Of a stretch of 64,000 bases of DNA, positions 9,497 through 21,599 are shown one piece after another; within the stretch, counting starts at the first letter, position 1, and every line of letters begins with the position of its first letter. Position numbers and translations under genes: made by a program. The stretch is from Vibrio orientalis CIP 102891 = ATCC 33934. Lineage in GTDB: Bacteria; Pseudomonadota; Gammaproteobacteria; Enterobacterales; Vibrionaceae. The DNA is taken from contig NZ_ACZV01000004.1 of NCBI RefSeq assembly GCF_000176235.1, positions 310,001-374,000 of the forward strand, in the 5' to 3' direction. Below the pieces are notes generated by a model, which saw only the letters and a program-made list of their open reading frames with translations, was not told where the DNA came from and did not search any database.

Positions 9497-9775
9497 ATGG
9501 CTAACACAGCAGCGGCTCTGCACATTTTAGTTAAGCACAAAGAGCAAGCAGAAGACATCATCAAGCAGCTAAAGAAAGGCGCAAAGTTTCAAACTTTAGC
9601 TAAGAAATATTCCACCTGCCCATCGGGCAAAAAGGGTGGTGATCTTGGTGAATTCCGCCGTGGTCAAATGGTCCCTCAGTTCGATAAAGTGTGCTTCTCT
9701 GGTGAAACACTGGTTCCACATTTAGTGAAGACCAAATTCGGGTGGCATGTTGTGAAGGTTTTGTACCGTATTTAA
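9497..9775 (+). CDS. ppiC: Peptidyl-prolyl cis-trans isomerase C (parvulin)
   Basis: 92-aa single-domain parvulin that isomerises Xaa-Pro bonds in the cytoplasm. Nearly the whole length is the rotamase domain: [23 protein letters not shown] and the closing HVVKVLY. The ATG at 9497 follows AAGAGG and matches the known short PpiC N-terminus; an upstream in-frame start at 9428 adds residues foreign to the family. The element's recombinase begins 68 bp after the stop, so the insertion point lies at or just past the 3' end of this gene. Confidence 0.92.
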
Positions 9776-9795
9776 TTAATCTTGTATACTAGAAC

Positions 9796-9835
9796 TCTCA
9801 GTAGTTTATAATGTACTACGTTGAAATTACTGAGA
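9796..9835. promoter_or_regulatory. Inverted repeat in the recombinase control region
   Basis: An 8-bp inverted repeat TCTCAGTA (9796-9803) / TACTGAGA (9828-9835) encloses a smaller one (GTAGT / ACTAC) and a TATAAT-like box at 9807-9812. It sits directly before the recombinase start. It could be an operator, part of the attachment site, or both. Confidence 0.5.
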
Positions 9836-9842
9836 ATTCTTG

Positions 9843-11429
9843 ATGTACACCCCTCAATTGCTTAGTGAACATTACAGCCAGATCACTACTCCTCAATCAG
9901 AACAACCATTAGCCATCCTTTACTCACGATTCAGTTCCCGTAACCAAGTGGGCAATGATTCTATCAATCGCCAGCTAGAAGGTGCTCAAAAGTTTTGTGA
10001 GTACCACAATCTAAAGTTATCTGAAGCTAACTACTCCGACTTGGGAATAAGTGCCTACAAAGACAATGTCCGTGAAGGACTTGAACTACTTTTGAACGCT
10101 GTCCGTGATGGAACCATTCCTGCTAATAGCTGGATTCTGTGTCACACAACATGCCGTCTATCCCGTAAAGGCTTTCAACATGTGCTTAAACTAGTGAGTG
10201 AACTAGTAGCCACTGGTTGTAAGTTCTGCACGATTAATGACAACCAAGTGTATGATTCAACAAACATCAACAAGTTGAGTAGTGCTTTACCGCTCATTAT
10301 TTCTGCTGATTTGGCGTTCAGTGAATCAGAGAAAAAGTCATTAATGATCAAGCATGCTAAAGAGCAAACGCGCAAAAATCGTAAGATTGTTGGTAAGCAG
10401 CCATACTGGATCACTCTTCAAGATGGCAAGCCAATGCTTAATGACTTTTCAACGATTGTTAAGACTATTATTGATCTCCGTTTAAAGGGTTACTCTGCGC
10501 AACGCATTGCCAAGCAGCTTAATGCAGATGGTCATCTAAGCCCTACAGGGAAATCATGGGGTGCAGCTGCGATCAGAAAGACGATTGATAACCATGTGCT
10601 CTATGGAGCCAAAGAATATAGTGAGATGAAAGATGGTAAATTAGTGCCAGTTGAAATCGTTGAGGATCTGTATCCTGCTCTGTGTTCAAAAAGCATTTGG
10701 TTGCAAATCAAATATGAAAAGGGCACAAAAGAAGTAGGTAAGCGAAGTAAGAGCAGCCCATTTAGCAAACTGTTGCGTTGTGCATGTTGTGGCTCAGCCA
10801 TGACCACTCGAAGCACGTATCAAAAAGGTGTCAAATACGATTACCGTGTTTGCATTCGTTCAACTGAGGGTAGCTGTGATCAAAAATCCCGTTTCCGTGA
10901 TCTAGACAATATCATCCTAGGTGAACTCAAACACTTGAAGTATGAAGTAAAGACACATGCAACAGTTGAAGTTGATAGCATTAAGGTGTTTCAAGATAAG
11001 CTAACTTTGCTAAATCAAACGAAAGAGTTACTTCAATCAAATCCTACTGCTCTAGCAGCAATTTACGCTGATATTGCCAAAACAGAGCAAGAGCTACATG
11101 AAGCAAAGCGCACAAAAGAGTTACTGGAATCTCAACCAAATGAAGTCAACTTCCAAGCCATTGTGGACGTTGAGGATCAAAGTCAACGAAATGTTCTATT
11201 AAGGCGCATCATCGAATCAATTGAAGTAAAACGCATTGATAAGGAAAAGTTAGTATCTCAAGTGCGTGTAGTAGTTCGTTTTAAGAACAGTCATACACAA
11301 ACATTTGTCGTTTGCTATCGTTATCGAGGCTATGACGTTAAGTGGCTTACTGATACTGAGAAATATAAAGAACAATTGAACGCATTTGTTAATGATGCAG
11401 TGAAACAACTTGAAGAATGGGAAAGATAA
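9843..11429 (+). CDS. Large serine recombinase (integrase)
   Basis: 528 aa. Catalyses site-specific integration and excision of the element through a serine-DNA intermediate. Resolvase domain about residues 22-160, with the catalytic motif YSRFSS (Ser31) and the downstream DSINRQLEG run. A recombinase domain follows at about 170-280, then a zinc ribbon with CACCG and later cysteines near 310-350, then a coiled-coil C-terminal part, the standard order for large serine integrases. The ATG at 9843 is used rather than the preceding TTG. It sits at the element end next to ppiC, as expected for an integrase beside its att site, and has its own terminator. Confidence 0.93.
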   Translation: MYTPQLLSEHYSQITTPQSEQPLAILYSRFSSRNQVGNDSINRQLEGAQKFCEYHNLKLSEANYSDLGISAYKDNVREGLELLLNAVRDGTIPANSWILCHTTCRLSRKGFQHVLKLVSELVATGCKFCTINDNQVYDSTNINKLSSALPLIISADLAFSESEKKSLMIKHAKEQTRKNRKIVGKQPYWITLQDGKPMLNDFSTIVKTIIDLRLKGYSAQRIAKQLNADGHLSPTGKSWGAAAIRKTIDNHVLYGAKEYSEMKDGKLVPVEIVEDLYPALCSKSIWLQIKYEKGTKEVGKRSKSSPFSKLLRCACCGSAMTTRSTYQKGVKYDYRVCIRSTEGSCDQKSRFRDLDNIILGELKHLKYEVKTHATVEVDSIKVFQDKLTLLNQTKELLQSNPTALAAIYADIAKTEQELHEAKRTKELLESQPNEVNFQAIVDVEDQSQRNVLLRRIIESIEVKRIDKEKLVSQVRVVVRFKNSHTQTFVVCYRYRGYDVKWLTDTEKYKEQLNAFVNDAVKQLEEWER

Positions 11430-11450
11430 AAGGGCGAAAGCCCTTTTTTT
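11429..11450 (+). terminator. Terminator of the recombinase gene
   Basis: AAAGGGC / GCCCTTT stem with a GAAA tetraloop and seven or more T, overlapping the stop codon. Confidence 0.9.
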
Positions 11451-11831
11451 ATACCTGTCCAACCAACATCAGACTACTTAGATAATTGAGTTTATGTTGT
11501 AACGTTATAGTGGATTGTAGTGAAGTTTAATTCATACTGGATATGAACAAAATTTAACTTGAGAACTTTTGTTTATTTTTTAACCTTTTCACGGTGCACT
11601 CGATCCACCAACATCATAAAAATACCCTTTCATATACATAACTTCAATTTGTATGAGCACAATATCCTTAAATAAAGTGTTCATTTTGTTCATATTTGTC
11701 AAATCTATAATATCTTTTTTGTTGTGTTTGTTTATCTGGTGTAAATAGATAGAACATCGAGTGTTAATGTAATTAAAGTGAGTTTAAATAGGGTATAAAT
11801 AAAATTAAAGAAACACTGATAAGGAAATATT
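11451..11831. other. AT-rich non-coding region before the small-gene operon
   Basis: About 380 bp with no credible gene. It holds a 10-bp direct repeat ACCAACATCA (11462-11471 and 11607-11616) and, near the right end, a TATAAA-like -10 box around 11793 without a good -35. It is the only place from which the operon starting at 11832 can be transcribed, as the recombinase is closed by a terminator. Confidence 0.5.
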
Positions 11832-12050
11832 ATGGATTACACATATTACAGACCAGATGAAATTTACGGCACAGAATCAAAAAGAGAACGTAATAACAAG
11901 ATTATTAGTCATCTGGAAGCAGGCTATACAGTTACTACAGTTGCTCGCCACCATAAGTTATCGTGGCAGACGATATACAACATCATCACCAAAGCATTTA
12001 AAGATGCAAAAGAACGTGCCGAGTTTATGGATTCATTGGAGAAGTACTGA
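11832..12050 (+). CDS. Small helix-turn-helix protein
   Basis: 72 aa with strong AAGGAAA ribosome binding site. A helix-turn-helix of the transposase/resolvase type is visible at about residues 30-53 (GYTVTTVARHHKLSWQTIYN). Family not recognised; probably DNA binding. First gene of a tight run of small genes on the same strand (next start 7 bp downstream). An overlapping +1-frame reading of similar length is taken to be a shadow. Confidence 0.65.
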   Translation: MDYTYYRPDEIYGTESKRERNNKIISHLEAGYTVTTVARHHKLSWQTIYNIITKAFKDAKERAEFMDSLEKY

Positions 12051-12057
12051 GGTTTAA

Positions 12058-12324
12058 ATGACAGCATTTTATGATCAAACTGGTCGCACATGGAAATGGA
12101 AGAAAAATTTAGCGCAAAGGCAAGTCGATGAAAGAGAACGTAGGCAAAGCCTGATGGATGGTTATGAGAATAGTATCAAGGCTGTGAACTGGGTAGAGGT
12201 TCAAAAGTGTGTCGAGAGAAACATTAAACCTTGCATTGCAATTAAGAGAACTGGCGTTTCTCGCACCCAATATTGGAAGATGAGAAAAGAACATGAACAA
12301 GCACAAAGAAAAATTGAAAAGTGA
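12058..12324 (+). CDS. Small basic protein with helix-turn-helix-like segment
   Basis: 88 aa, rich in Lys and Arg. Residues about 55-76 (KPCIAIKRTGVSRTQYWKM) fit a helix-turn-helix. No family recognised. It lies 7 bp after the previous gene and overlaps the next by 32 bp, so it is part of a translationally linked operon. Likely DNA binding, by inference only. Confidence 0.6.
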   Translation: MTAFYDQTGRTWKWKKNLAQRQVDERERRQSLMDGYENSIKAVNWVEVQKCVERNIKPCIAIKRTGVSRTQYWKMRKEHEQAQRKIEK

Positions 12325-12592
12325 TGTGGCTTTTTATGCTTCGATCTATGGGACATTAATTACTAGTTGCTTGTTTAATAAGAGCACTCGCAGTGTACGA
12401 GATATATTCAAGATGAAAAATATAAAACCAGTTCGTACATTTAGCGGAATCAAGAATCTGGTAAACGTAATGGCGGCGATAGAAATCAAGCATGCAACAA
12501 TGCAAAAAGTTAGTGACAATAAAAATGTAGCATCATTAAACAATGAATGTGACACGAGATCAAAAATAGAGTTTTTAAGGAGTTTTAAATGA
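12293..12592 (+). CDS. Hypothetical small protein of the element
   Basis: 99 aa, basic. The segment YGTLITSCLFNKSTRSVRDIF (about 19-38) resembles a helix-turn-helix. No family recognised. It overlaps the gene before (32 bp) and its TGA overlaps the next ATG (ATGA), which argues that it is truly translated. Confidence 0.55.
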   Translation: MNKHKEKLKSDVAFYASIYGTLITSCLFNKSTRSVRDIFKMKNIKPVRTFSGIKNLVNVMAAIEIKHATMQKVSDNKNVASLNNECDTRSKIEFLRSFK

Positions 12593-13209
12593 AAGTTTTA
12601 AAAATGTATAGTACCTCAAAGGGAAGACATAACGTCGTAAGAGAGGCAGAAAGTACTTACGAGCTTTTCAAAAGTCGTTATAAAGAATATTTTTGCGGTG
12701 AGTGGTGTAGAGATTATTTCAGCAAAGCATTGATTAGATTGTTCGTAAATGGTCGTATCACAAGCGATGAGTTTAAAGAGTTCAATCAATATGGTCAAAA
12801 AATGTCTGACTTACTTGATGAAATGGGTGCTGAATTACCAAATGTTAGACCAATCTTATTAGAGATTGGAAAGAAAAGTGTAGATAAAGAAACTGATCTT
12901 TCTAATATAAAGCGCTTTATTGTATGGCATCAAAAGTTTAAAGGCATTCATCGTCGGATGGCTGATCTGTTAATTTTAATTAATGACGTTGAAAATAAAT
13001 TAAACGGATTTAATGTCCAAAATGGATATTCACGAAATTGTACTGATGCGGGAATTATTCCAGAAACATTACTAACTATTGAACAAGTAGCATTTCTGGT
13101 TGAGCTTGGATGGTTTACGAAAGCAAGTATAAAGTACGTATATGGTATCAGTGACAACGAAATGAGAAAAGCAAGTGCTATTGCACGTCAAAGAGTAGCT
13201 ACTGTTTAA
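12589..13209 (+). CDS. Hypothetical element protein with C-terminal helix-turn-helix-like region
   Basis: 206 aa, mostly helical by composition. The last 45 residues (TIEQVAFLVELGWFTKASIKY onward) look like a helix-turn-helix with the same spacing as its small neighbours. The start is coupled to the previous stop (ATGA). Not recognised. Possibly a regulator or replication accessory of the element. Confidence 0.6.
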   Translation: MKVLKMYSTSKGRHNVVREAESTYELFKSRYKEYFCGEWCRDYFSKALIRLFVNGRITSDEFKEFNQYGQKMSDLLDEMGAELPNVRPILLEIGKKSVDKETDLSNIKRFIVWHQKFKGIHRRMADLLILINDVENKLNGFNVQNGYSRNCTDAGIIPETLLTIEQVAFLVELGWFTKASIKYVYGISDNEMRKASAIARQRVATV

Positions 13210-13291
13210 TTAACAATCTTTCAGAACTGCAAAGAACTTGAACGTCATTCAGTTTGAGTTCAGTAGTACTATTTTTCATATGAGGTATGAA

Positions 13292-13522
13292 GTGAATAAC
13301 CATTTACATGCAAAGGATGTTTACTTGGCTTTAAAGTTAGTTCCATTAGTTGGAGCTAGCTTTGTAGCGAAGATGCTAGGTGTAAACATCAGAACAATTC
13401 AATATATAACCAATAAAAGAGTAAAGAGTAGTATCAAAAACAAAGATGATGTATTAATTAAACTGGTTCCTGATATGAAAGAACGACTTATCAAACATTT
13501 AGAAGAGAATGAAAGTGACTAA
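13292..13522 (+). CDS. Small helix-turn-helix protein
   Basis: About 76 aa. Helix-turn-helix at FVAKMLGVNIRTIQYITNKR. The GTG at 13292 is preferred because ATGAGG lies 6 nt upstream. In-frame alternatives are ATG 13280 and TTG 13238, neither with a good ribosome binding site. It overlaps the next gene by 14 bp. Function unknown beyond probable DNA binding. Confidence 0.5.
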   Translation: MNNHLHAKDVYLALKLVPLVGASFVAKMLGVNIRTIQYITNKRVKSSIKNKDDVLIKLVPDMKERLIKHLEENESD

Positions 13523-13733
13523 ATCAATTCCATTGAGAACATTAATTCAAGAGCGTAGTATGAGTGAGTTCTTTAAATCACTTGACTATGACACTTATAC
13601 ATTAAGAAGTGAAAATAAAGGAATTATACGTTTAGAAACGTATAATGGAACAAGTGCAGAAATTAAAATAAACCGTGAAGATATGGTATCAAGCAGAATG
13701 GTTAAAATGATAATGTCATTTGCTGCACTTTAA
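13509..13733 (+). CDS. Hypothetical small protein
   Basis: 74 aa. No family recognised and no helix-turn-helix evident. The body alternates charged and hydrophobic residues like a small alpha/beta fold. Its start lies inside the end of the preceding gene, preceded by AGAAGAG, consistent with coupling. Last gene of the 11.8-13.7 kb operon. Confidence 0.5.
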   Translation: MKVTKSIPLRTLIQERSMSEFFKSLDYDTYTLRSENKGIIRLETYNGTSAEIKINREDMVSSRMVKMIMSFAAL

Positions 13734-14054
13734 TGTCACGCGAAGCGTGTTGTACCAAATATTATTTTCTTTCTCTTTAATATTATTATCCACAGTGTTA
13801 ATGGATATTAGATAGTATTGAATGTATTGGAGAAGAACATTATAACAACGAGATTTTTGGTAATAAACACTAAAATCAATTTATTTTCTTGTTAAGAATG
13901 TTTGATAATTATTGTGTCAAAAAGTTTATTTAGGATTCTATCGTTATATAATAACAGTATCAAATAAATTACGCCTAGCAAGGCGTTTTTTTTAAAATTA
14001 AACTATCAAATATTTTTGATAATAAATAATTCATAATCACTCAAGGGAGTAAAT
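13734..14054. other. Candidate replication origin of the element
   Basis: A 320-bp AT-rich gap. It contains a perfect DnaA box TTATCCACA at 13786-13794. The heptamer TATCAAA occurs four times, twice in each orientation, at 13901-13907, 13958-13964, 14004-14010 and 14015-14021; the last two form an inverted repeat with a 4-nt gap. The genes downstream on the same strand are a helicase and a primase-like protein. Origin function is inferred, and the heptamers could instead be operators for the 14055 gene. Confidence 0.5.
13971..13993 (+). terminator. Terminator of the small-gene operon
   Basis: ACGCCT / AGGCGT stem with AGCA loop and eight T. Confidence 0.8.
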
Positions 14055-14246
14055 ATGCAAGCTTTAGATAATAACATTATGCGTAAAGTGTACATCAAAT
14101 ATGGTAGCAAAATCACATCAAGTGTAATTGGTTGCTCTCAAAGCCATGTATGCCGTGTAGCAAAAGAAAACAACTGGCCATCTCCATCTGGGAATGATGT
14201 GCATAAATTGATCATGGCATCTCTTTATAAAACAGAAAACTTTTAA
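14055..14246 (+). CDS. Small helix-turn-helix protein
   Basis: 63 aa with a strong GGGAG ribosome binding site. A helix-turn-helix spans about residues 15-40 (YGSKITSSVIGCSQSHVCRV). Not recognised. Placed between the candidate origin and the helicase, with an inverted TATCAAA repeat (14004-14021) just upstream that could be its operator. Confidence 0.65.
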   Translation: MQALDNNIMRKVYIKYGSKITSSVIGCSQSHVCRVAKENNWPSPSGNDVHKLIMASLYKTENF

Positions 14247-14277
14247 TTAACAGCACCATTGAAGTGAGAATTTTTTA

Positions 14278-14310
14278 ATGAATATGAGGTGCCAAATGAA
14301 AAAATTATAA
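14278..14310 (+). other. Possible 10-residue leader ORF before the helicase
   Basis: Encodes MNMRCQMKKL and stops 4 nt before the helicase ATG. The leader has GAG-type ribosome binding sequence upstream, and a second good one (GAGG) before its internal ATG. The helicase ATG itself has none. Re-initiation coupling is an inference. Confidence 0.35.
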
Positions 14311-14314
14311 CAAA

Positions 14315-16363
14315 ATGACTAATATCTTAAAAATCAAATTGAGTGACGAACAATATTTGTCACATGTTGCAAGCCAACTGCCAAAATCAAATGGTATACA
14401 TTTAATTCTTGCTAAAACTGGTGTCGGTAAAACACATCACATGCTTGAACAATGCCATGTTAATGGTGGGACTGCTGTTTTCCCTGTCAAAGCAGTAATG
14501 AATCAAAGCTTAAAGTACAAGGCAGACAACTCACTGCAAGGTACGATCATACAGATTGAACACCTTGATAAGTGGAGAACAAATCAAAATGAACTGCATG
14601 TCGATGAAGCTCAGATTTTGTATCTGGGCGGCTTTAGAAAGTCTGTAGAAAAATTATACGAAACAATAGTTGAAGCTTCACAGACCAAGCCTGTTTATTT
14701 GTATTCAGCGACGGTGAGAACCGAGTTCATGCCGTTAAAGTTCAATAGCATTATCCATGTTGAAAAGAGCTTTGAACGAAATATTAACGTAATCACTCTT
14801 GATTCTAAGGGTGACGTAAAGATCGCTGATGCAAAACTAGCTCAAAGTTTAGAGTATATTGATCAGCAAGGCGATAAAGCTAAAGTTATGGCTTTTATCA
14901 ACTCGAATGCGCAAGCAAGCGCAGTAGTTAAAAGACTGTCGCAAACGGGTAAGAAGGCAATTCTTTTATCTTCAAGCTCAATTCGGAGTGGCGAAGCTAA
15001 AGCAGTTTATCAAAGTATCATCAGTCATGCTGCGATTTCACAAGTCACATATGACTATGTCATTTGTACATCCTGTATGGCAGAAGGAATCAATTTCAAC
15101 GATTACTTCAAGGTTGTTAGTTGCCAGGATGAGAGCGGTAATCTGTTTCAGCAGCAAGGTCGTGCACGCGGTTCTGCTGAGCACTGGGTGATTCTAGGTG
15201 GTCTTGAAAACAAGGATCATGGTGACATATCCCTTTCTTACAATAATGCTTCTAGGCAAATCTGGCGCACTTCTACGGTTGATGGTGATGTTAAGCGTGT
15301 ACCGATAAATGTTGAGTGTGGTCTAGCTTCTTCAACTGAGCTTTGTGAGTGGTTAAACCATGATGCTCGTGCAAATGCTGATCTAGCATCATTGTTCACT
15401 TCTCAGTTCCAAAAAGGGGTGTACGCAAAGCAAGTGCTCAAGGAGATTGATTTGCTCGGGTATAAAGTTGACCAATTGCTCTCATATGAATCTGATGTTA
15501 AGACCAAAAACAATGGCAAGGTGTCATTGCAACGCTTAGCGAAAGTGCTTTATCAATCAGGTGGCAAAGTTTTATTTAAACGCAATGAGAGCAAATATGC
15601 ACTTTGCAATGATGATCCTGAAATAGAGTTAAAAGTCTTTGAAGATGGCGTATTAACTGATCTACCAGCACTCGCTTCATATTTGATCGGTAACAAGGAC
15701 ACTACACCTGCTTTAGTGCAAATGGTGCAGCTTCTGAATCCTGACAAAAGTAATGAGCAGATTGACAATGCAGTACAAGAGTTAATTGAGTGGGATTCAA
15801 GTTGGAACAAATATAATTTTCGTGGTGACAAGTGGAACGTGATGTCGATTATCAATGGTGATGGTCGAGCATTTTTACGAAACATCCACCAGCCAAGATA
15901 TAAAGAGATAAAGCAAGAAATTGACAACGCTATCACTGGTATGAGTGAAGTCATAATGAACAAGTACAGCGGAATCATTAGTGATGAGAAAGTAGCAGAG
16001 GCAGCAAGTCAGTTTTGGATTAATGCTTATCCAATCTCTCGGGATAATGGATCAGACAATAGGCACTTCCATAGTGACGACAATAAAACTCTTCGTCTAC
16101 GTCTATTCAAGCTGATGATGGGTATTACTTTTGATAGTCATGGAAACTGGGTTGTGAAGAAAGATAAAGCAATTTGGCATGTTGTTTTAGATCACAACGA
16201 CCGTAGAAAATACAATCGCAAGGCTGACACTGTGAAAAGTAAAGGTATTGAAATGAGCACATACCATGAAATGACCAAGTTCAACATGAAAGAAGTTGCT
16301 GTAATGAAACCAAAACCATTCAAGCAGTCATTAAATGACGTTATCAACCAGATTAATTTCTAA
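14315..16363 (+). CDS. SF2 DEAD-like helicase, probable replication protein
   Basis: 682 aa. Superfamily 2 motifs in order: Walker A AKTGVGKT (33-40), motif II VDEAQ (96-100), motif III LYSAT (129-133), motif V CTSCMAEGIN (251-260) and motif VI QQQGRARG (279-286). The long C-terminal half is not recognised. The layout recalls origin-binding or replication helicases of plasmids, phages and herpesviruses, but it could also be a repair-type helicase. It follows the candidate origin and precedes the primase-like gene, which supports a replication role. Its own ribosome binding site is missing (see the leader ORF at 14278). Confidence 0.75.
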   Translation: MTNILKIKLSDEQYLSHVASQLPKSNGIHLILAKTGVGKTHHMLEQCHVNGGTAVFPVKAVMNQSLKYKADNSLQGTIIQIEHLDKWRTNQNELHVDEAQILYLGGFRKSVEKLYETIVEASQTKPVYLYSATVRTEFMPLKFNSIIHVEKSFERNINVITLDSKGDVKIADAKLAQSLEYIDQQGDKAKVMAFINSNAQASAVVKRLSQTGKKAILLSSSSIRSGEAKAVYQSIISHAAISQVTYDYVICTSCMAEGINFNDYFKVVSCQDESGNLFQQQGRARGSAEHWVILGGLENKDHGDISLSYNNASRQIWRTSTVDGDVKRVPINVECGLASSTELCEWLNHDARANADLASLFTSQFQKGVYAKQVLKEIDLLGYKVDQLLSYESDVKTKNNGKVSLQRLAKVLYQSGGKVLFKRNESKYALCNDDPEIELKVFEDGVLTDLPALASYLIGNKDTTPALVQMVQLLNPDKSNEQIDNAVQELIEWDSSWNKYNFRGDKWNVMSIINGDGRAFLRNIHQPRYKEIKQEIDNAITGMSEVIMNKYSGIISDEKVAEAASQFWINAYPISRDNGSDNRHFHSDDNKTLRLRLFKLMMGITFDSHGNWVVKKDKAIWHVVLDHNDRRKYNRKADTVKSKGIEMSTYHEMTKFNMKEVAVMKPKPFKQSLNDVINQINF

Positions 16364-16366
16364 CCA

Positions 16367-16440
16367 AACCATCTAGTGATGAGGCAAGGTCACTAGCCTC
16401 TATTCAAAAATGGTACCTTTTTCAATCGAAAAATCAATGA
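16367..16440. repeat. Left copy of the 70-bp imperfect inverted repeat
   Basis: Shares AACCATCTAGT, ATTCA, GTACC, TTTTCAATC, AAAAA and CAATGA, in that order, with the reverse complement of 21305-21371. In both places the repeat points into the adjacent gene (16475 plus strand, 21208 minus strand). It may be a shared promoter region or the ends of an inserted module. Confidence 0.7.
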
Positions 16441-16452
16441 CCAATCGTCATT
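16436..16452. promoter_or_regulatory. Operator-like palindrome before the primase-like gene
   Basis: AATGAC (16436-16441), 5-nt spacer, GTCATT (16447-16452), 22 bp before the start codon. Related to the CAATGA/TCATTG sites at 20149-20166 and 21374-21421. Confidence 0.5.
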
Positions 16453-16474
16453 AATAATTATAAAGGAAACAAAA

Positions 16475-17470
16475 ATGACTAATACCAATAATGTAATAAA
16501 GTATCTTAATGCTAATATTAGCATCAAAAAGTCGATGTATGACTCTACGTTGACGACTGCAAAGCTAAGCACTGTAATAAAGTTGATCAGAGATGAAACA
16601 GTCAAAAATAAGATTGAACAAATACGATTATTGAATGCCAATGGTGCACATGACAAAGCCAAAGAAGTGAAGAATAATCTTCCCATGTTCTACCTAACTT
16701 GTTATCACGATATTGCTGGTGGAGCAAACCAATATAATGAAAATAGTCATTCAGGTCTGATGATGTTTGACATTGACAAAGTGTCACAAGATGAATCTAA
16801 GGACTTGATGTATCTACTTTTTAGTAGCGAATTTGCTGATAACGTTGTATTTGCCTTCTTATCACCTAGTGGTGGTTTAAAGTTCACTGTTGCTACTGAC
16901 TATGACGGCACAGATCCTGACTTCTACAAGCACTGCTACAAAAAATTGTATGCTCATTTAGTAGATATTGGTATGCCGGAAGGAAACCTTGACGCGCAAA
17001 CGTGCAATGCGAACCGTGGCACTTACTTCTCGGCTGACAAAAATATCAAGTTGGGTAAATCGAAAGTCATTTCATTGGAAGCGTATAGAGCAGAGTACAG
17101 CATCTTAAAAGCAGAAGACGAATCTATGATGTGCTCATTACGTGCGGTTAATGAACATGCTGATTATGATGAAGTTTATGCAAATAGATATTGGAATAAC
17201 GCTGTGAACAATATCATTGCATCAATGGGTAGCGGTGATCGCCACTTAAACATTTTCAAGCTATGTATGGTGTCATTTAAATGTGGGTTAGGAATTGAGG
17301 GTGCAATTGAGGCATTGAATCGTGCAAAAGCAAACGGTCAGTACACAGAATCTATGAGCATTAGAAACAAGGCATTAGATGCGTGGAAGTCATTTGATGG
17401 GGTAGTTGATATTAAGTTCTTTAAACCTCGAACTGCTCAGCAATATGCTCAAATATTCAGTGGCTTATAA
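16475..17470 (+). CDS. Primase-like protein with BT4734/VirE N-terminal-type domain
   Basis: 331 aa with a clear AAAGGA ribosome binding site. The segment MMFDIDK (about 96-102), then FAFLSPSGGLKF (127-137), then conserved Asp and Arg near 173-181, matches the BT4734-like N-terminal domain (also called VirE N-terminal domain) often fused or linked to helicases. The paired acidic residues and the SGG-K loop recall archaeo-eukaryotic primases. The C-terminal part is not recognised. With the upstream helicase it would form a replication module. The primase activity is inferred. Confidence 0.6.
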   Translation: MTNTNNVIKYLNANISIKKSMYDSTLTTAKLSTVIKLIRDETVKNKIEQIRLLNANGAHDKAKEVKNNLPMFYLTCYHDIAGGANQYNENSHSGLMMFDIDKVSQDESKDLMYLLFSSEFADNVVFAFLSPSGGLKFTVATDYDGTDPDFYKHCYKKLYAHLVDIGMPEGNLDAQTCNANRGTYFSADKNIKLGKSKVISLEAYRAEYSILKAEDESMMCSLRAVNEHADYDEVYANRYWNNAVNNIIASMGSGDRHLNIFKLCMVSFKCGLGIEGAIEALNRAKANGQYTESMSIRNKALDAWKSFDGVVDIKFFKPRTAQQYAQIFSGL

Positions 17471-17473
17471 ACG

Positions 17474-17495
17474 AAAAGGGAGTCCGAAGACTCCC
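17474..17495 (-). terminator. Terminator between convergent genes
   Basis: GGGAGTC / GACTCCC stem with CGAA loop. The T tract (TTTTCG) is on the minus strand, so it mainly ends the 17550-18074 gene. Confidence 0.7.
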
Positions 17496-17549
17496 AATAA
17501 CAAAGTATGACTAATACTCTATATAATCTATTTATAGATAAATCGCACG

Positions 17550-18074
17550 TTAATCAAACAGCCCTTTAGTGTATATACTTGGTTTTTCTTCCTTTTTCTC
17601 TTTAGGTGGAGGCACTGGTTGATCGTTATACGTCAAGTAAATCAATCCTCTCATACCAGCAGAACTTGGATGAGACGATGGGTTGTTGTACAACCAAAGA
17701 TGTTTAAGCTCTTTTTCGTCAATCGGTTCAATTGCTGAGAGTTTAAACCAGATCGAACACTTCTTTTTTCGGTAATAGGCAGGTGTCAGATTAGGTTCTT
17801 TTGAAGATATTTCAGTCTTACTCGTACTACCAGCGATCACGTCAATGATGTTTGCTCTACAAGTGAATTTTGAACCATGCATTAGGTACAAGTAGCACTG
17901 TTCACCACGCTCAAGTTGTAGCTTGGCAGTTTTAACAAAGCTCTGATTCATACCGATTCCGAACTTACCCATCCAAACACTGCCATTAGCTTCAATGACG
18001 GCTGAGTGCTCAGCAATGGTATCAGCACCGGACAGCTTATCACTGTATCTAAGTAGAAAGTGTAGATTTTTCAT
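17550..18074 (-). CDS. Orphan element protein next to the restriction-modification genes
   Basis: 174 aa, soluble, no recognised family. The N-terminal 115 residues look like a compact beta-rich domain (HFLLRYSDKL, GSVWMGKFGIGM, CYLYLMHGSKFTCRANI), which faintly recalls PUA/EVE-like nucleic-acid-binding folds. The tail is Pro/Lys/Glu rich and probably disordered. It is divergent from the methyltransferase gene with only 81 bp between them, so shared control is plausible. A role in restriction or defence is suggested by position only. Confidence 0.6.
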   Translation of the reverse strand: MKNLHFLLRYSDKLSGADTIAEHSAVIEANGSVWMGKFGIGMNQSFVKTAKLQLERGEQCYLYLMHGSKFTCRANIIDVIAGSTSKTEISSKEPNLTPAYYRKKKCSIWFKLSAIEPIDEKELKHLWLYNNPSSHPSSAGMRGLIYLTYNDQPVPPPKEKKEEKPSIYTKGLFD

Positions 18075-18155
18075 AGAGATGGAACCAAGTATATCAATGT
18101 TGTCAAGTTTTGATTATAATGCTACCACTTAAATATCTTAATTACTAGGTAAGAA

Positions 18156-19289
18156 ATGTTAGAAAATCAGCAGCTTACTATCGACTGTGCAGTACCAGAT
18201 AGTGGTGTTAATGCCCTTAAAATCAAAGCAGTGGATCTACCTAAGTTCCCTACGACTCGCTACCAAGGCTCAAAACGTAAAATCCTACCAGAACTAGCAA
18301 CAGCATTGAGCACGATCCAGTACAACAATGCACTAGATATGTTTAGTGGCTCTGGTGTCGTATCACTCTTGTTTAGAACATTAGGTAAGAACGTTAGCTC
18401 AAATGACTTCATGTTATACAATCAAAATACAGCCAAAGTATTTTTGGAGTTTGACCTTGAACGATTGAACGCTTTGAACGCACAGTCTGATTTAGAAGAT
18501 TTGCTGTATAACTTACCTTTGTCAGATGACGGACTAGTATCAAAGAACTATAAAGGCATTTACTTTATTGATTCTGAAAATGATGAGATTGACCGATTCT
18601 GTCAAAACATTCATCAGTACGACGATTTTGCAAAGTCTGTATACATCTATGCTATTGGTCAAGCGTTAACCAAGAAGCGTCCATACAATCTTTTCCACCG
18701 CGCAAATTTAGAAATGCGTACTAAAGAAGTTAAACGTTCTTTTGGTAATAAAAAGACTTGGGAAACACCAATGATTGAGCACGCAATCAAGTGTATCAAT
18801 GAATTGAAGAAGTATCCTATTAAAACTGCTGATACATTAAGCAAGTACACAACTGGTTTTAACTCAGCAGATTTAGAATCATTTGCTGATGATTTCGACT
18901 TAATTTATCTTGATCCGCCATACATCAATGGTAAAGGTACACCTGTTGATTACAGTAACTTCTATCATTTCTTAGAGGGGCTTTGCGATTACTCGTTGTT
19001 CGACAATGGTGATGATAAGTACCCTCATAAACCGATCACAAAGAAACCTAGTGCATGGTTAAAGCCAGATAGTGCATTGAAAGAGCTTACGGCGATCTGT
19101 GAACGCTGGCCTAATGCAACAATTGTTTTTAGCTATAGAAGTGATGGCTTACCAGTACCAGAAGAAGCAGCAAAGGCAATGTCAACTAAAGGTCGTACAG
19201 CCGAGATTCATTCTGCTGGCGAGTACAAGTATGCATTGAGTAAAACAAACACAAATGAAGAATTAATCATCATTTCAAAACCAGCATAA
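18156..19289 (+). CDS. DNA adenine-N6 methyltransferase of the EcoRV-type system
   Basis: 377 aa. Expected to protect the element and host by methylating adenine in the sequence cut by the neighbouring endonuclease. Motif order is that of alpha-class (Dam-like) enzymes: RYQGSK (35-40, motif X), DMFSGSG (61-67, SAM-binding motif I), a target-recognition region, then DPPY (253-256, motif IV). It is longer than M.EcoRV (about 300 aa) and only distantly like it, so specificity is inferred from the partner nuclease. Convergent with the endonuclease gene, with a terminator between them. Start supported by TAGGTAAG. Confidence 0.88.
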   Translation: MLENQQLTIDCAVPDSGVNALKIKAVDLPKFPTTRYQGSKRKILPELATALSTIQYNNALDMFSGSGVVSLLFRTLGKNVSSNDFMLYNQNTAKVFLEFDLERLNALNAQSDLEDLLYNLPLSDDGLVSKNYKGIYFIDSENDEIDRFCQNIHQYDDFAKSVYIYAIGQALTKKRPYNLFHRANLEMRTKEVKRSFGNKKTWETPMIEHAIKCINELKKYPIKTADTLSKYTTGFNSADLESFADDFDLIYLDPPYINGKGTPVDYSNFYHFLEGLCDYSLFDNGDDKYPHKPITKKPSAWLKPDSALKELTAICERWPNATIVFSYRSDGLPVPEEAAKAMSTKGRTAEIHSAGEYKYALSKTNTNEELIIISKPA

Positions 19290-19292
19290 TAA

Positions 19293-19320
19293 GAGGGGAG
19301 CAGAAGCTCCCCTTTGTTTT
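19293..19320 (+). terminator. Terminator after the methyltransferase
   Basis: AGGGGAGC / GCTCCCCT perfect stem, AGAA loop, followed by TTGTTTT. Confidence 0.8.
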
Positions 19321-20095
19321 ATTTGAATCTTGCCATTTCTGGATGATTGTACAAAGAGTGCCAGTCGAAAATCTGTTCTTTGGCTTCTTCGTAATTTGCC
19401 CAGTAGAAATCACAAGCACCTTTCTTATCACGGAACTGAGTAAACGGTCCATTTACAGTTTCAAAGCCACGAGGTGTATCGATCTCGACCGAACCAATGT
19501 TTTTCGTGTTGCCACTACCAGCACGAATACCAGTCAAATCAACCTTTTCACGAATGAAGACAGATTGTACCGAGTAAGGACAACGGATCTGACCACGAGT
19601 TGGGATATTTTCCAGTGTGTACTCTTCAAACGCTTCATTGCGAATGTACACAAAGCCTAGTACCCAATGTTCATGGTAAGTATTGTATGGGTAAAGGATG
19701 TTCTTCGTGTTGTTACGAATGAATGAGTTATAGCTACCAAGAGTCATCTTGGTCTTTTTGTAACCAATAGGTGCTTTTGGCTCGATGTAGGTAGATTTAA
19801 TATCAAGTGCAATGCGATGCAGTACAGTTCTGCCATCAACGTCATACTTAGTTAGAGTGAAGTCTGGATAAGTTGTTTGATTTGCAGTTTCAACAACATA
19901 GCCTTTCTCCGCAGCCAAGGAACGTAGTGCTGGACTAGCAAAACGTTCAAAAACCGTACTCAGAACTTTAGTGTCAGAGTCAATTGGTAGTACGTTGTTG
20001 TTTTGGTCGATAAAACCTTGGATTTCCCAAGTAAAGTTTCGTGTTAGCTCAAAGAAACGGCGACTAAAGCCGTTAATCTCAAAATATGGCTGCAT
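19319..20095 (-). CDS. EcoRV-like type II restriction endonuclease
   Basis: 258 aa. Compared from memory with R.EcoRV (about 245 aa), whole stretches match: DSDTKVLSTVFERF, YPDFTL, ALDIKSTY, SFIRNNTKNILYPY and AGSGNTKNIGS. The EcoRV catalytic residues Asp74, Asp90 and Lys92 correspond to Asp78, Asp98 and Lys100, and Glu45 to Glu50. The recognition-loop residues GSGNT are present at 193-197, so the target is probably GATATC with a blunt central cut. The gene appears intact. Start: ATG 20095 with GAGG 7 nt upstream. No controller (C) protein gene was recognised nearby. Confidence 0.92.
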   Translation of the reverse strand: MQPYFEINGFSRRFFELTRNFTWEIQGFIDQNNNVLPIDSDTKVLSTVFERFASPALRSLAAEKGYVVETANQTTYPDFTLTKYDVDGRTVLHRIALDIKSTYIEPKAPIGYKKTKMTLGSYNSFIRNNTKNILYPYNTYHEHWVLGFVYIRNEAFEEYTLENIPTRGQIRCPYSVQSVFIREKVDLTGIRAGSGNTKNIGSVEIDTPRGFETVNGPFTQFRDKKGACDFYWANYEEAKEQIFDWHSLYNHPEMARFK

Positions 20096-20148
20096 ATTGA
20101 TACCTCATTAAGTTACCAGTCATTTATGAGGTCTGAGGCTCTTTTTTT

Positions 20149-20166
20149 CAATGACTTGGCTCATTA
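20149..20166. promoter_or_regulatory. Operator-like palindrome between endonuclease and antirestriction genes
   Basis: CAATGA (20149-20154), 6-nt spacer, TCATTA (20161-20166), in the 187-bp divergent promoter region. Same half-site as at 16435 and 21374-21421. A second inverted repeat, CCTCAT / ATGAGG (20103-20131), lies closer to the endonuclease start. Confidence 0.45.
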
Positions 20167-20282
20167 AAAATGTGATTTGTTTCATAACAATCAAGAAACG
20201 GTATGATTGAAAAGTGTGAAAGACTTGTATACGAGATCACATGACTTGTTTATATTAGAAGAATCTAATTTAAGAGGTCGTA

Positions 20283-20684
20283 ATGCCGTTTATTCGCTTT
20301 TACAAAATGAATCCACTGCTTGGAATGGCTGTTGAAGAAGCGTTCTACGAATTTTCACGAACAGTGTCGAAGTATGATGGTGGAGCTTGGGAAGTAGTCG
20401 TTGATAGTGATGATGTGTATGCGGTTTATCCAGTGTCGTTAGGATCACTGGAAGTTGGTCATGATGGCAACTATGTCTTACCGATAGAAATATCTTCTAG
20501 AGCATTTGGTGTGTATGTTTCGTTAGCCGTCTACAACAAATTATGTTGGTTGTTTCACGATCAAGGTAACGATGCATTGTGCGAAGTTTTTAGCAGTATG
20601 TATCACTCTTTACGTATCTGGATGATAGATACAACCGAGCTTCCACCAGCAGAAGTTGAACATATTCTTAGGATGATTGATTAG
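20283..20684 (+). CDS. ArdB/KlcA-like antirestriction protein
   Basis: 133 aa with AAGAGG ribosome binding site. The pattern YDGGAWEV, then VYPVSL, then LEVGHDGNYVLPIEISSRAFGVYVSLAVYNKLC, ending with VEHILRMID, follows KlcA/ArdB proteins (KYNGGYWNF ... AAID) closely in order and length. Known members block type I restriction without binding DNA. On a mobile element this would help entry into hosts with type I systems. It is divergent from the EcoRV-like nuclease. The assignment is by motif pattern only. Confidence 0.65.
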   Translation: MPFIRFYKMNPLLGMAVEEAFYEFSRTVSKYDGGAWEVVVDSDDVYAVYPVSLGSLEVGHDGNYVLPIEISSRAFGVYVSLAVYNKLCWLFHDQGNDALCEVFSSMYHSLRIWMIDTTELPPAEVEHILRMID

Positions 20685-20685
20685 C

Positions 20686-20712
20686 AAAAAGGGAGCCGAA
20701 GCTCCCTTTTTT
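20686..20712. terminator. Bidirectional terminator
   Basis: AAAAAGGGAGC / GCTCCCTTTTT stem with CGAA loop, between the convergent antirestriction gene and the 165-aa gene. Confidence 0.88.
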
Positions 20713-21151
20713 AATGAATGAAATTGGCTTCAAGTAATTCATTAATCGAATATAATTGAATACCATCTTCTTCAAATTTCTCAGCCATTAGCATCATCTT
20801 CTGACTCAAACATTCGTAATACTCGTGGACACTGACTAGTGTCTCAGCATCAATATGCTGTGCTTCGATGAAGTATTCTAAAAATCCACCATCTTCACGA
20901 TATTGACACTCCACTAGGTGGCAAGCATTAAGTTTGTGCAGAAGCTGCGCTACGGCCAAGTTTGAACTAGACACATATATCTCACTGATAGGGTCATTGT
21001 CATTTTTAGTGTTCAAAAAAACAACATCACTATCGTTTACGGTAACACCGAGTGTACGTAAAGCATCCAAAATCACGTTATGCTCAAAAGGATCGTGAAA
21101 CATAAATGTAAAGTTCTGTTGAGCGGCAGTATTTGTATTAAAAGTAGTCAT
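20711..21151 (-). CDS. Orphan element protein
   Basis: 146 aa from the ATG at 21151 (165 aa if a GTG at 21208 is used). Acidic, soluble, no recognised family. The ATG has only a weak GAAG upstream. A perfect AAGGAGG lies 44 nt further up (21196-21202), followed by a GTGC-UUCG-GCAC hairpin (21184-21195). The control region upstream carries the right copy of the 70-bp repeat. Confidence 0.55.
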   Translation of the reverse strand: MTTFNTNTAAQQNFTFMFHDPFEHNVILDALRTLGVTVNDSDVVFLNTKNDNDPISEIYVSSSNLAVAQLLHKLNACHLVECQYREDGGFLEYFIEAQHIDAETLVSVHEYYECLSQKMMLMAEKFEEDGIQLYSINELLEANFIH

Positions 21152-21304
21152 AATCAAATCTTCAAGTTGGTTAATGTTTAAATGTGCCGAAGCACCCTCC
21201 TTAACCACTCAACGGTGCGCATACTAAAGCAATTGCTTCTATCATGACAACAAGAATATCTTATCGAACTAAACAAAATCGTTTATATTCAGGTGTTTGC
21301 TCAA

Positions 21305-21371
21305 TCATTGAGCTTTTTTGATTGAAAATGGTACTTTTTTTGGTGAATGATAACTGGTTAACTAGATGGTT
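21305..21371. repeat. Right copy of the 70-bp imperfect inverted repeat
   Basis: Reverse complement of the pattern at 16367-16440. The outermost 11 bp (ACTAGATGGTT, 21361-21371) are perfectly inverted with respect to 16367-16377. Confidence 0.7.
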
Positions 21372-21373
21372 GA

Positions 21374-21421
21374 TCATTGCTCAATGACCACACTCATTGG
21401 TGAAGGCAAATGATGCAATGA
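21374..21421. repeat. Cluster of CAATGA half-sites
   Basis: TCATTG 21374-21379, CAATGA 21382-21387, TCATTG 21394-21399 and CAATGA 21416-21421. The second and third form a palindrome with a 6-nt spacer, like the site at 20149. Confidence 0.6.
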
Positions 21422-21599
21422 TAAAAAAAATATTCCGGCGTCTGTTCACGTAAGCGAACCTATACTGTGGTTATCAGGTGTTCACTTATAATGCATGAAT
21501 AGACCGGCCTATTATTAACACTGTGGTTACATGGTTGAGTTAATACAATATGGTCCATACTAAAGGTGCTATATCGCACGTAATTGAGCTCGATTAGAC

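Follow-up and report, generated by a model that had tools for sequence, protein, structure and literature searches.

In elements of the staphylococcal cassette chromosome (SCC), CCPol-MP primes replication and Cch2 unwinds a specific origin that lies downstream of its own gene (PMC7581432). The phage-inducible chromosomal minimalist islands (PICMIs) of Vibrionaceae are small satellites that carry a primase and defence cargo and have no capsid genes (PMC10803314), and the phage-inducible chromosomal island-like element (PLE) of Vibrio cholerae encodes a large serine recombinase (PMC7145576). Here we analyse a 64,000-nucleotide stretch of Vibrio orientalis CIP 102891 = ATCC 33934, hereafter the window (contig NZ_ACZV01000004.1, positions 310,001 to 374,000; genome of 4.70 Mb in 5 contigs), in which a mobile island of 11,808 bp (window positions 9758-21567) is inserted in the last codons of ppiC. 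We consider it probable that this ppiC element is a site-specific mobile island working like an SCC cassette, with its own replication pair and variable defence cargo. It offers a concrete example of an island that carries recombination and replication genes, has no recognised transfer genes and crosses genera; the means by which islands of this kind spread have yet to be settled (PMC11389934).

We delimited the element by comparison with empty sites and with a near-identical copy at ppiC of Enterovibrio nigricans DSM 22720. The left end is the attL crossover dinucleotide GT at 9758-9759 (GTGAAG-GT-TTTGTACCG), within the last codons of ppiC (peptidylprolyl isomerase, 9497-9775, + strand), whose 3' end is rebuilt by the element to give the tail KVLYRI*. 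The attR dinucleotide GT lies at 21566-21567 (ACTAAAG-GT-GCTATATCG), followed by the host's original ppiC tail, KVLYRT*, ending at 21583. The attL tail KVLYRI* is found in both carriers, within sequence common to the two elements, whereas the attR tail KVLYRT* is spelled in each carrier as in its own host, and KVLYRT* (KVLFRT* in L053) also ends the unoccupied ppiC genes with a readable end (11 in Vibrio and 8 in Enterovibrio). The base following the core is unlike at attL and attR in both hosts, and the base preceding it differs in E. nigricans (AAA at attL versus AAG at attR). Because these flanking bases differ, the crossover can be narrowed to GT, presuming that they have undergone no later point mutation; a two-base overlap is expected of serine recombinases. 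An excised circle is predicted to carry the junction CATACTAAAG-GT-TTTGTACCG.

Defined att sites, empty sites and the same element in another host together identify a site-specific integrated mobile element. The first-pass annotation of this DNA had proposed, at 9780-21598, a discrete, integrated element combining a serine recombinase with a replication module; the element and all of its named components stand, and only the ends had to be moved, to 9758-21567, once the second copy was compared.

The two ppiC copies are 95-98% identical in most 400-base bins, compared with 75.6% for the ppiC genes of the two carriers and 68-72% for other matched flanking DNA. Given this excess over host identity, recent horizontal movement between the genera is supported. 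Unoccupied ppiC genes with the same flanking genes occur in both Vibrio and Enterovibrio, an expectation that the first-pass annotation had set, and empty sites with matching right flanks were found at four Vibrio loci (L009, L011, L012, L015) and three Enterovibrio loci (L050, L053, L057). One block, 11364-12563, comprising the end of the recombinase gene and the small helix-turn-helix (HTH) and unassigned genes, is just 77-80% identical between the ppiC elements, and for this reason was probably swapped by modular exchange with unsampled relatives. The drop in identity is sharp, with a gap count of 137 bases in the first bin.

We next consider the genes for recombination and replication. The recombinase (9840-11429, + strand, 528-529 amino acids) has Resolvase, Recombinase and Zn_ribbon domains, all three of those of large serine recombinases (PF00239/PF07508/PF13408 in Pfam; phrog_95, 1.4e-65). 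A putative superfamily-2-type helicase of 682 amino acids (14315-16363, +) carries the motifs AKTGVGKT, HVDEAQ and QQQGRARG, which follow the patterns GxTGxGK[ST]-like, DEA/IQ and QQxGRAR, are conserved in three members and are kept even in a relative of 25% identity; in Pfam it has no family above cutoff, and neither PHROGs nor the PDB yielded a relative. The third gene (16475-17470, +, 331 amino acids) encodes a VirE/BT4734-type primase-polymerase with matches to BT4734-like_N (PF08800, 5e-06) and, in PADLOC, to PrimPol (8e-10) and RTasVirE-PriCT2 (2e-18); D99, D101, SPSGGLK and D173 are invariant across the three members. By these matches, the primase-like protein is a member of the VirE/BT4734 branch, related to primase-polymerases associated with clustered regularly interspaced short palindromic repeats (CRISPR). 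Between the ppiC copies, dN/dS obtained by rough count was 0.07 for the recombinase, 0.10 for the helicase and 0.15 for the primase, values (0.07-0.15) indicating that the three are under purifying selection.

The third member is a distant relative, an element of ~7.3 kb that interrupts comM in Vibrio genome G014 (L020/L021). It encodes, in order, a serine recombinase (615 amino acids), a primase, a helicase, small open reading frames (ORFs), an HTH gene and a small resolvase; its primase overlaps the helicase start by 4 bases, in an order opposite to that of the ppiC element. The three replication and recombination proteins each share 24-26% identity with their counterparts in the window, and there are no restriction genes among its genes. 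Because this relative keeps the trio without a restriction-modification (R-M) system, we regard recombinase, primase and helicase as the core and restriction as cargo, and judge that the three recur as a set whose insertion site and cargo vary. The search for the same gene set elsewhere, as first suggested, thus returned both the E. nigricans copy and the comM relative. The helicase family is rare: its profile matched two of 228 Vibrio genomes (the window's genome and G014), and among 369 genomes sampled at class level the sole match was the window's. Taken together, these comparisons support the boundaries, the site, the empty sites, cross-genus transfer, a conserved core and purifying selection.

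Based on these features, we propose that the large serine recombinase acts on attP and the ppiC 3' end, joining them at the GT dinucleotide, an insertion that would rebuild the ppiC tail and by this means let the host gene survive. Excision would be carried out by the recombinase with a directionality factor, perhaps the product of one of the small HTH genes. The excised circle would then be copied, with the helicase opening an origin, the primase-polymerase priming and host polymerases finishing replication, and the element would travel by a vehicle it does not itself encode, be it phage particles, conjugation in trans or DNA uptake. For the replication pair, SCC elements offer a biochemical precedent (PMC7581432). 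Two candidate origins can be named, neither of them strong. The first is an AT-rich conserved non-coding region (13740-14050) with a DnaA box TTATCCACA at 13786 and TTTGATAAT repeats; the element holds two DnaA boxes, a count near chance. The second is the helicase-primase spacer, which bears a palindromic AAATGGTACCTTTTT site (16405-16433), and a further GGTAC[C/T] site lies near the right end (21314-21342), where the E. nigricans copy has two. The GGTACC motif gives four strand matches in the window versus 0.22 expected; as it is palindromic, each of the two places involved is counted once per strand. Rfam returned one weak CrcZ match only, far under the gathering score.

Several points weigh against this proposal. 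The helicase is identified by motifs only, both AlphaFold models are unreliable (predicted local distance difference test scores of 31 and 43, low because the alignments are shallow), and a solved relative of the primase was not found by sequence search. No convincing iteron array was seen and the origin candidates are weak. There are three members in all, two of them near-identical, and excision, replication, the origin and the vehicle are steps that we infer.

The cargo occupies the right-hand part of the element. It includes a PUA-like protein, a possible defence accessory (17550-18074, - strand; PF24405, 6.3e-18; NCBIfam DS9_1, 2e-16, below cutoff), and an R-M system composed of a D12-class adenine methyltransferase (18156-19289, +; PF02086, 1.3e-14) and an EcoRV-type endonuclease (19319-20095, -; PF09233, 1.3e-38; PDB EcoRV, 7.6e-42). 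The EcoRV-type assignment, already made in the first-pass annotation, is upheld by the PF09233 match and by the catalytic PD...DIK and the GSGNT recognition loop, both of which are kept. The endonuclease evolves faster than the methylase (dN/dS 0.32 versus 0.02), with many changes near its C terminus. We also considered avoidance of the EcoRV site: neither ppiC copy contains GATATC, but this is not significant (codon shuffling P = 0.16), and of 32 palindromes with an expected count above 2.5, 4 are missing from the window's element. Beyond the R-M genes lie an antirestriction protein of the PF03230 family (20283-20684, +; 4.4e-06; phrog_10132) and a protein without a family match (20711-21208, -; 146-165 amino acids depending on start codon choice), which is kept in the second copy.

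Smaller genes fill the region between the recombinase and the helicase, with the small HTH genes spanning 11832-14246, all on the + strand. The first encodes a 72-residue HTH protein, a candidate regulator or excision factor (11832-12050; HTH_Tnp_ISL3 PF13542, 7.6e-07), followed by three small ORFs of 88, 99 and 206 residues with no function assigned, kept in the second copy (12058-13209), two of 94 and 74 residues, the former with a weak MerR-like HTH match (13238-13733), and a repressor-like HTH protein of 63 residues (14055-14246; phrog_6223, weak, 0.006). Several other Vibrio serine-recombinase islands have, at the opposite end, a small serine resolvase as a separate gene (L021:2151-2744, L043:11910-12485, L044:13832-14440, L045:13881-14498, L039:14046-14582); the ppiC element is without one.

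We additionally examined six further Vibrio genomes in which the recombinase had a match at E<=1e-30, together with the second recombinase island of the window's genome. At these other Vibrio serine-recombinase loci (L039-L045), phmmer found no match to the primase or helicase, a weak negative because the same run missed the fragmented G014 helicase (split between L020 and L021); the genus-wide helicase profile matched no Vibrio genome other than the window's and G014, and the loci were rejected as the same kind of element. The second locus of the window's genome (L039, C5:597000-616999), at 12983-19348, has a small resolvase, and its LSYSHD protein (SEFIR/TIR-like by eye) lies beside tag-like genes, with a close relative in G045 (L040). 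Across Vibrio genomes, comM (yifB) is an insertion gene for different serine-recombinase islands (L020/L021, L043).

Four other explanations bear on how the element is carried and what its genes are for. It may, though this is doubtful, be a minimal PICMI-like phage satellite, induced by a helper, copied by its own primase and helicase, packaged in helper particles and using R-M against competing phages: it is small and has a primase, defence cargo and no capsid genes, as PICMIs do (PMC10803314), and PLE likewise has a large serine recombinase (PMC7145576). However, terminase and capsid-modifying families were not found, and neither was the PICMI AlpA regulator (PF05930/PF12728) among the element's scanned proteins, nor a DUF3987/DUF5906 primase, the element's primase matching PF08800 instead. 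None of the element's proteins matched the RepA_N initiator of PLE (PF06970). Similarity to phages came down to a single 45-base match, from 7.9 kb, against 50,697 phage records (E=5e-3) and a weak match of the primase (27% identity) to a Flavobacterium phage primase/helicase; no helicase or primase relative was found in plasmids or IMG/VR, nulls that leave room for unsampled helpers. Carriage by a helper, raised in the first-pass annotation, is thus unsupported: there is no packaging gene, no AlpA and, beyond weak or chance-level matches, no similarity to phages or plasmids.

Slightly less probable is an iOriT-type hitch-hiker, in which an origin of transfer (oriT)-like site would be moved by a conjugative plasmid or an integrative and conjugative element (ICE), with the antirestriction protein aiding entry. 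Elements of this type are a recognised kind (PMC11389934), and the PF03230 protein is present. VirE/BT4734-type primases are found in mobilisable elements of Bacteroides. Against this, no relaxase family, as expected of an integrative and mobilisable element (IME), was matched in 15 element proteins, and plasmid similarity is limited to a 28-base terminator hairpin found in several records and, covering that stretch too, a match of 38 bases, although ICE oriT sequences were not compared directly. The hairpin (20686-20713) is identical over its 28 bases to Vibrio, Yersinia and Klebsiella records.

We think it unlikely that the locus is a site-specific defence island in which the primase and helicase act in defence and not in replication. 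The best PADLOC match of the primase is to the reverse-transcriptase-associated VirE-PriCT2 (2e-18), and the protein resembles CRISPR-associated primase-polymerases and sits alongside R-M genes and the PUA-like protein; yet the comM relative keeps primase and helicase with the recombinase in the absence of R-M, and the scanned proteins of the element included none recognised as a reverse transcriptase or Cas protein. The lack of transfer genes would fit a decayed prophage or ICE remnant, but this reading is highly improbable given intact main genes, purifying selection, clean att sites and recent cross-genus movement.

That lack was itself part of the first-pass description and is borne out for the two full copies. 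Among the 15 element proteins, Pfam and PHROGs gave no capsid, terminase, relaxase or conjugation family beyond sub-cutoff matches at chance level, and no prophage capsid, terminase or tail gene above that level. No packaging, capsid, relaxase or conjugation gene was recognised in either near-identical copy; the comM relative was less fully surveyed, its small ORFs being partly scanned. Capsid or conjugation genes in close relatives, or a site occupied in every strain, had been named as evidence against the proposal; no such genes were recognised there, and empty sites are present.

Returning to the SCC-like mobile island that we favour, we see an even chance that its members are the founders of an undescribed group of Vibrionaceae replicating integrative elements, a gamma-proteobacterial equivalent of SCC whose replication pair is unrelated to that of SCC. 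The set that would define the group is a large serine recombinase, a VirE-type primase-polymerase and a helicase without a Pfam, PHROGs or PDB family. No paper describing it was found in the literature searched, which does not prove that none exists. The element provides a compact primase-helicase pair that falls outside the families searched, and also a serine integrase from marine Gram-negatives whose attP/attB pair is well defined.

The comparison with described systems qualifies the initial view that the locus fits no element class: this holds for membership, as defining features of SCC, PICMI and PLE that were tested fail, but not for the overall plan, which matches SCC elements (PMC7581432). 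With PICMIs, the ppiC element shares small size, a primase, defence cargo, the absence of capsid genes and a host family, but it has a different primase family, a separate helicase and ppiC in place of fis as its site. PLE resembles it in having a large serine recombinase and its own replication gene, whereas the ppiC element has primase plus helicase and no phage link was found. CRISPR-associated primase-polymerases and reverse-transcriptase-associated VirE-PriCT2 proteins share its primase domain family, yet here that primase sits in a recombinase-helicase element with no recognised cas or reverse transcriptase gene. SCC/SCCmec elements of pattern 2 (CCPol-MP-Cch2) have a large serine recombinase and their own primase and helicase pair, and SCC elements likewise insert at one gene's 3' end, with variable cargo and no recognised transfer genes. 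They differ in site (rlmH versus ppiC), in primase (an A-family polymerase with MP versus a VirE type of the archaeo-eukaryotic primase superfamily) and in helicase (Cch/Cch2 versus a superfamily-2 type by motif), and the recombinase scored 52 bits against the CcrB model (cutoff 900) and 31 against CcrA (cutoff 700). The replication pair would be a putative functional analogue of that of SCC, with primase and helicase genes from different families. Membership thus appears to fail for SCC, PICMI, PLE, prophages and relaxase-bearing IMEs, and the nearest working model appears to be SCC.

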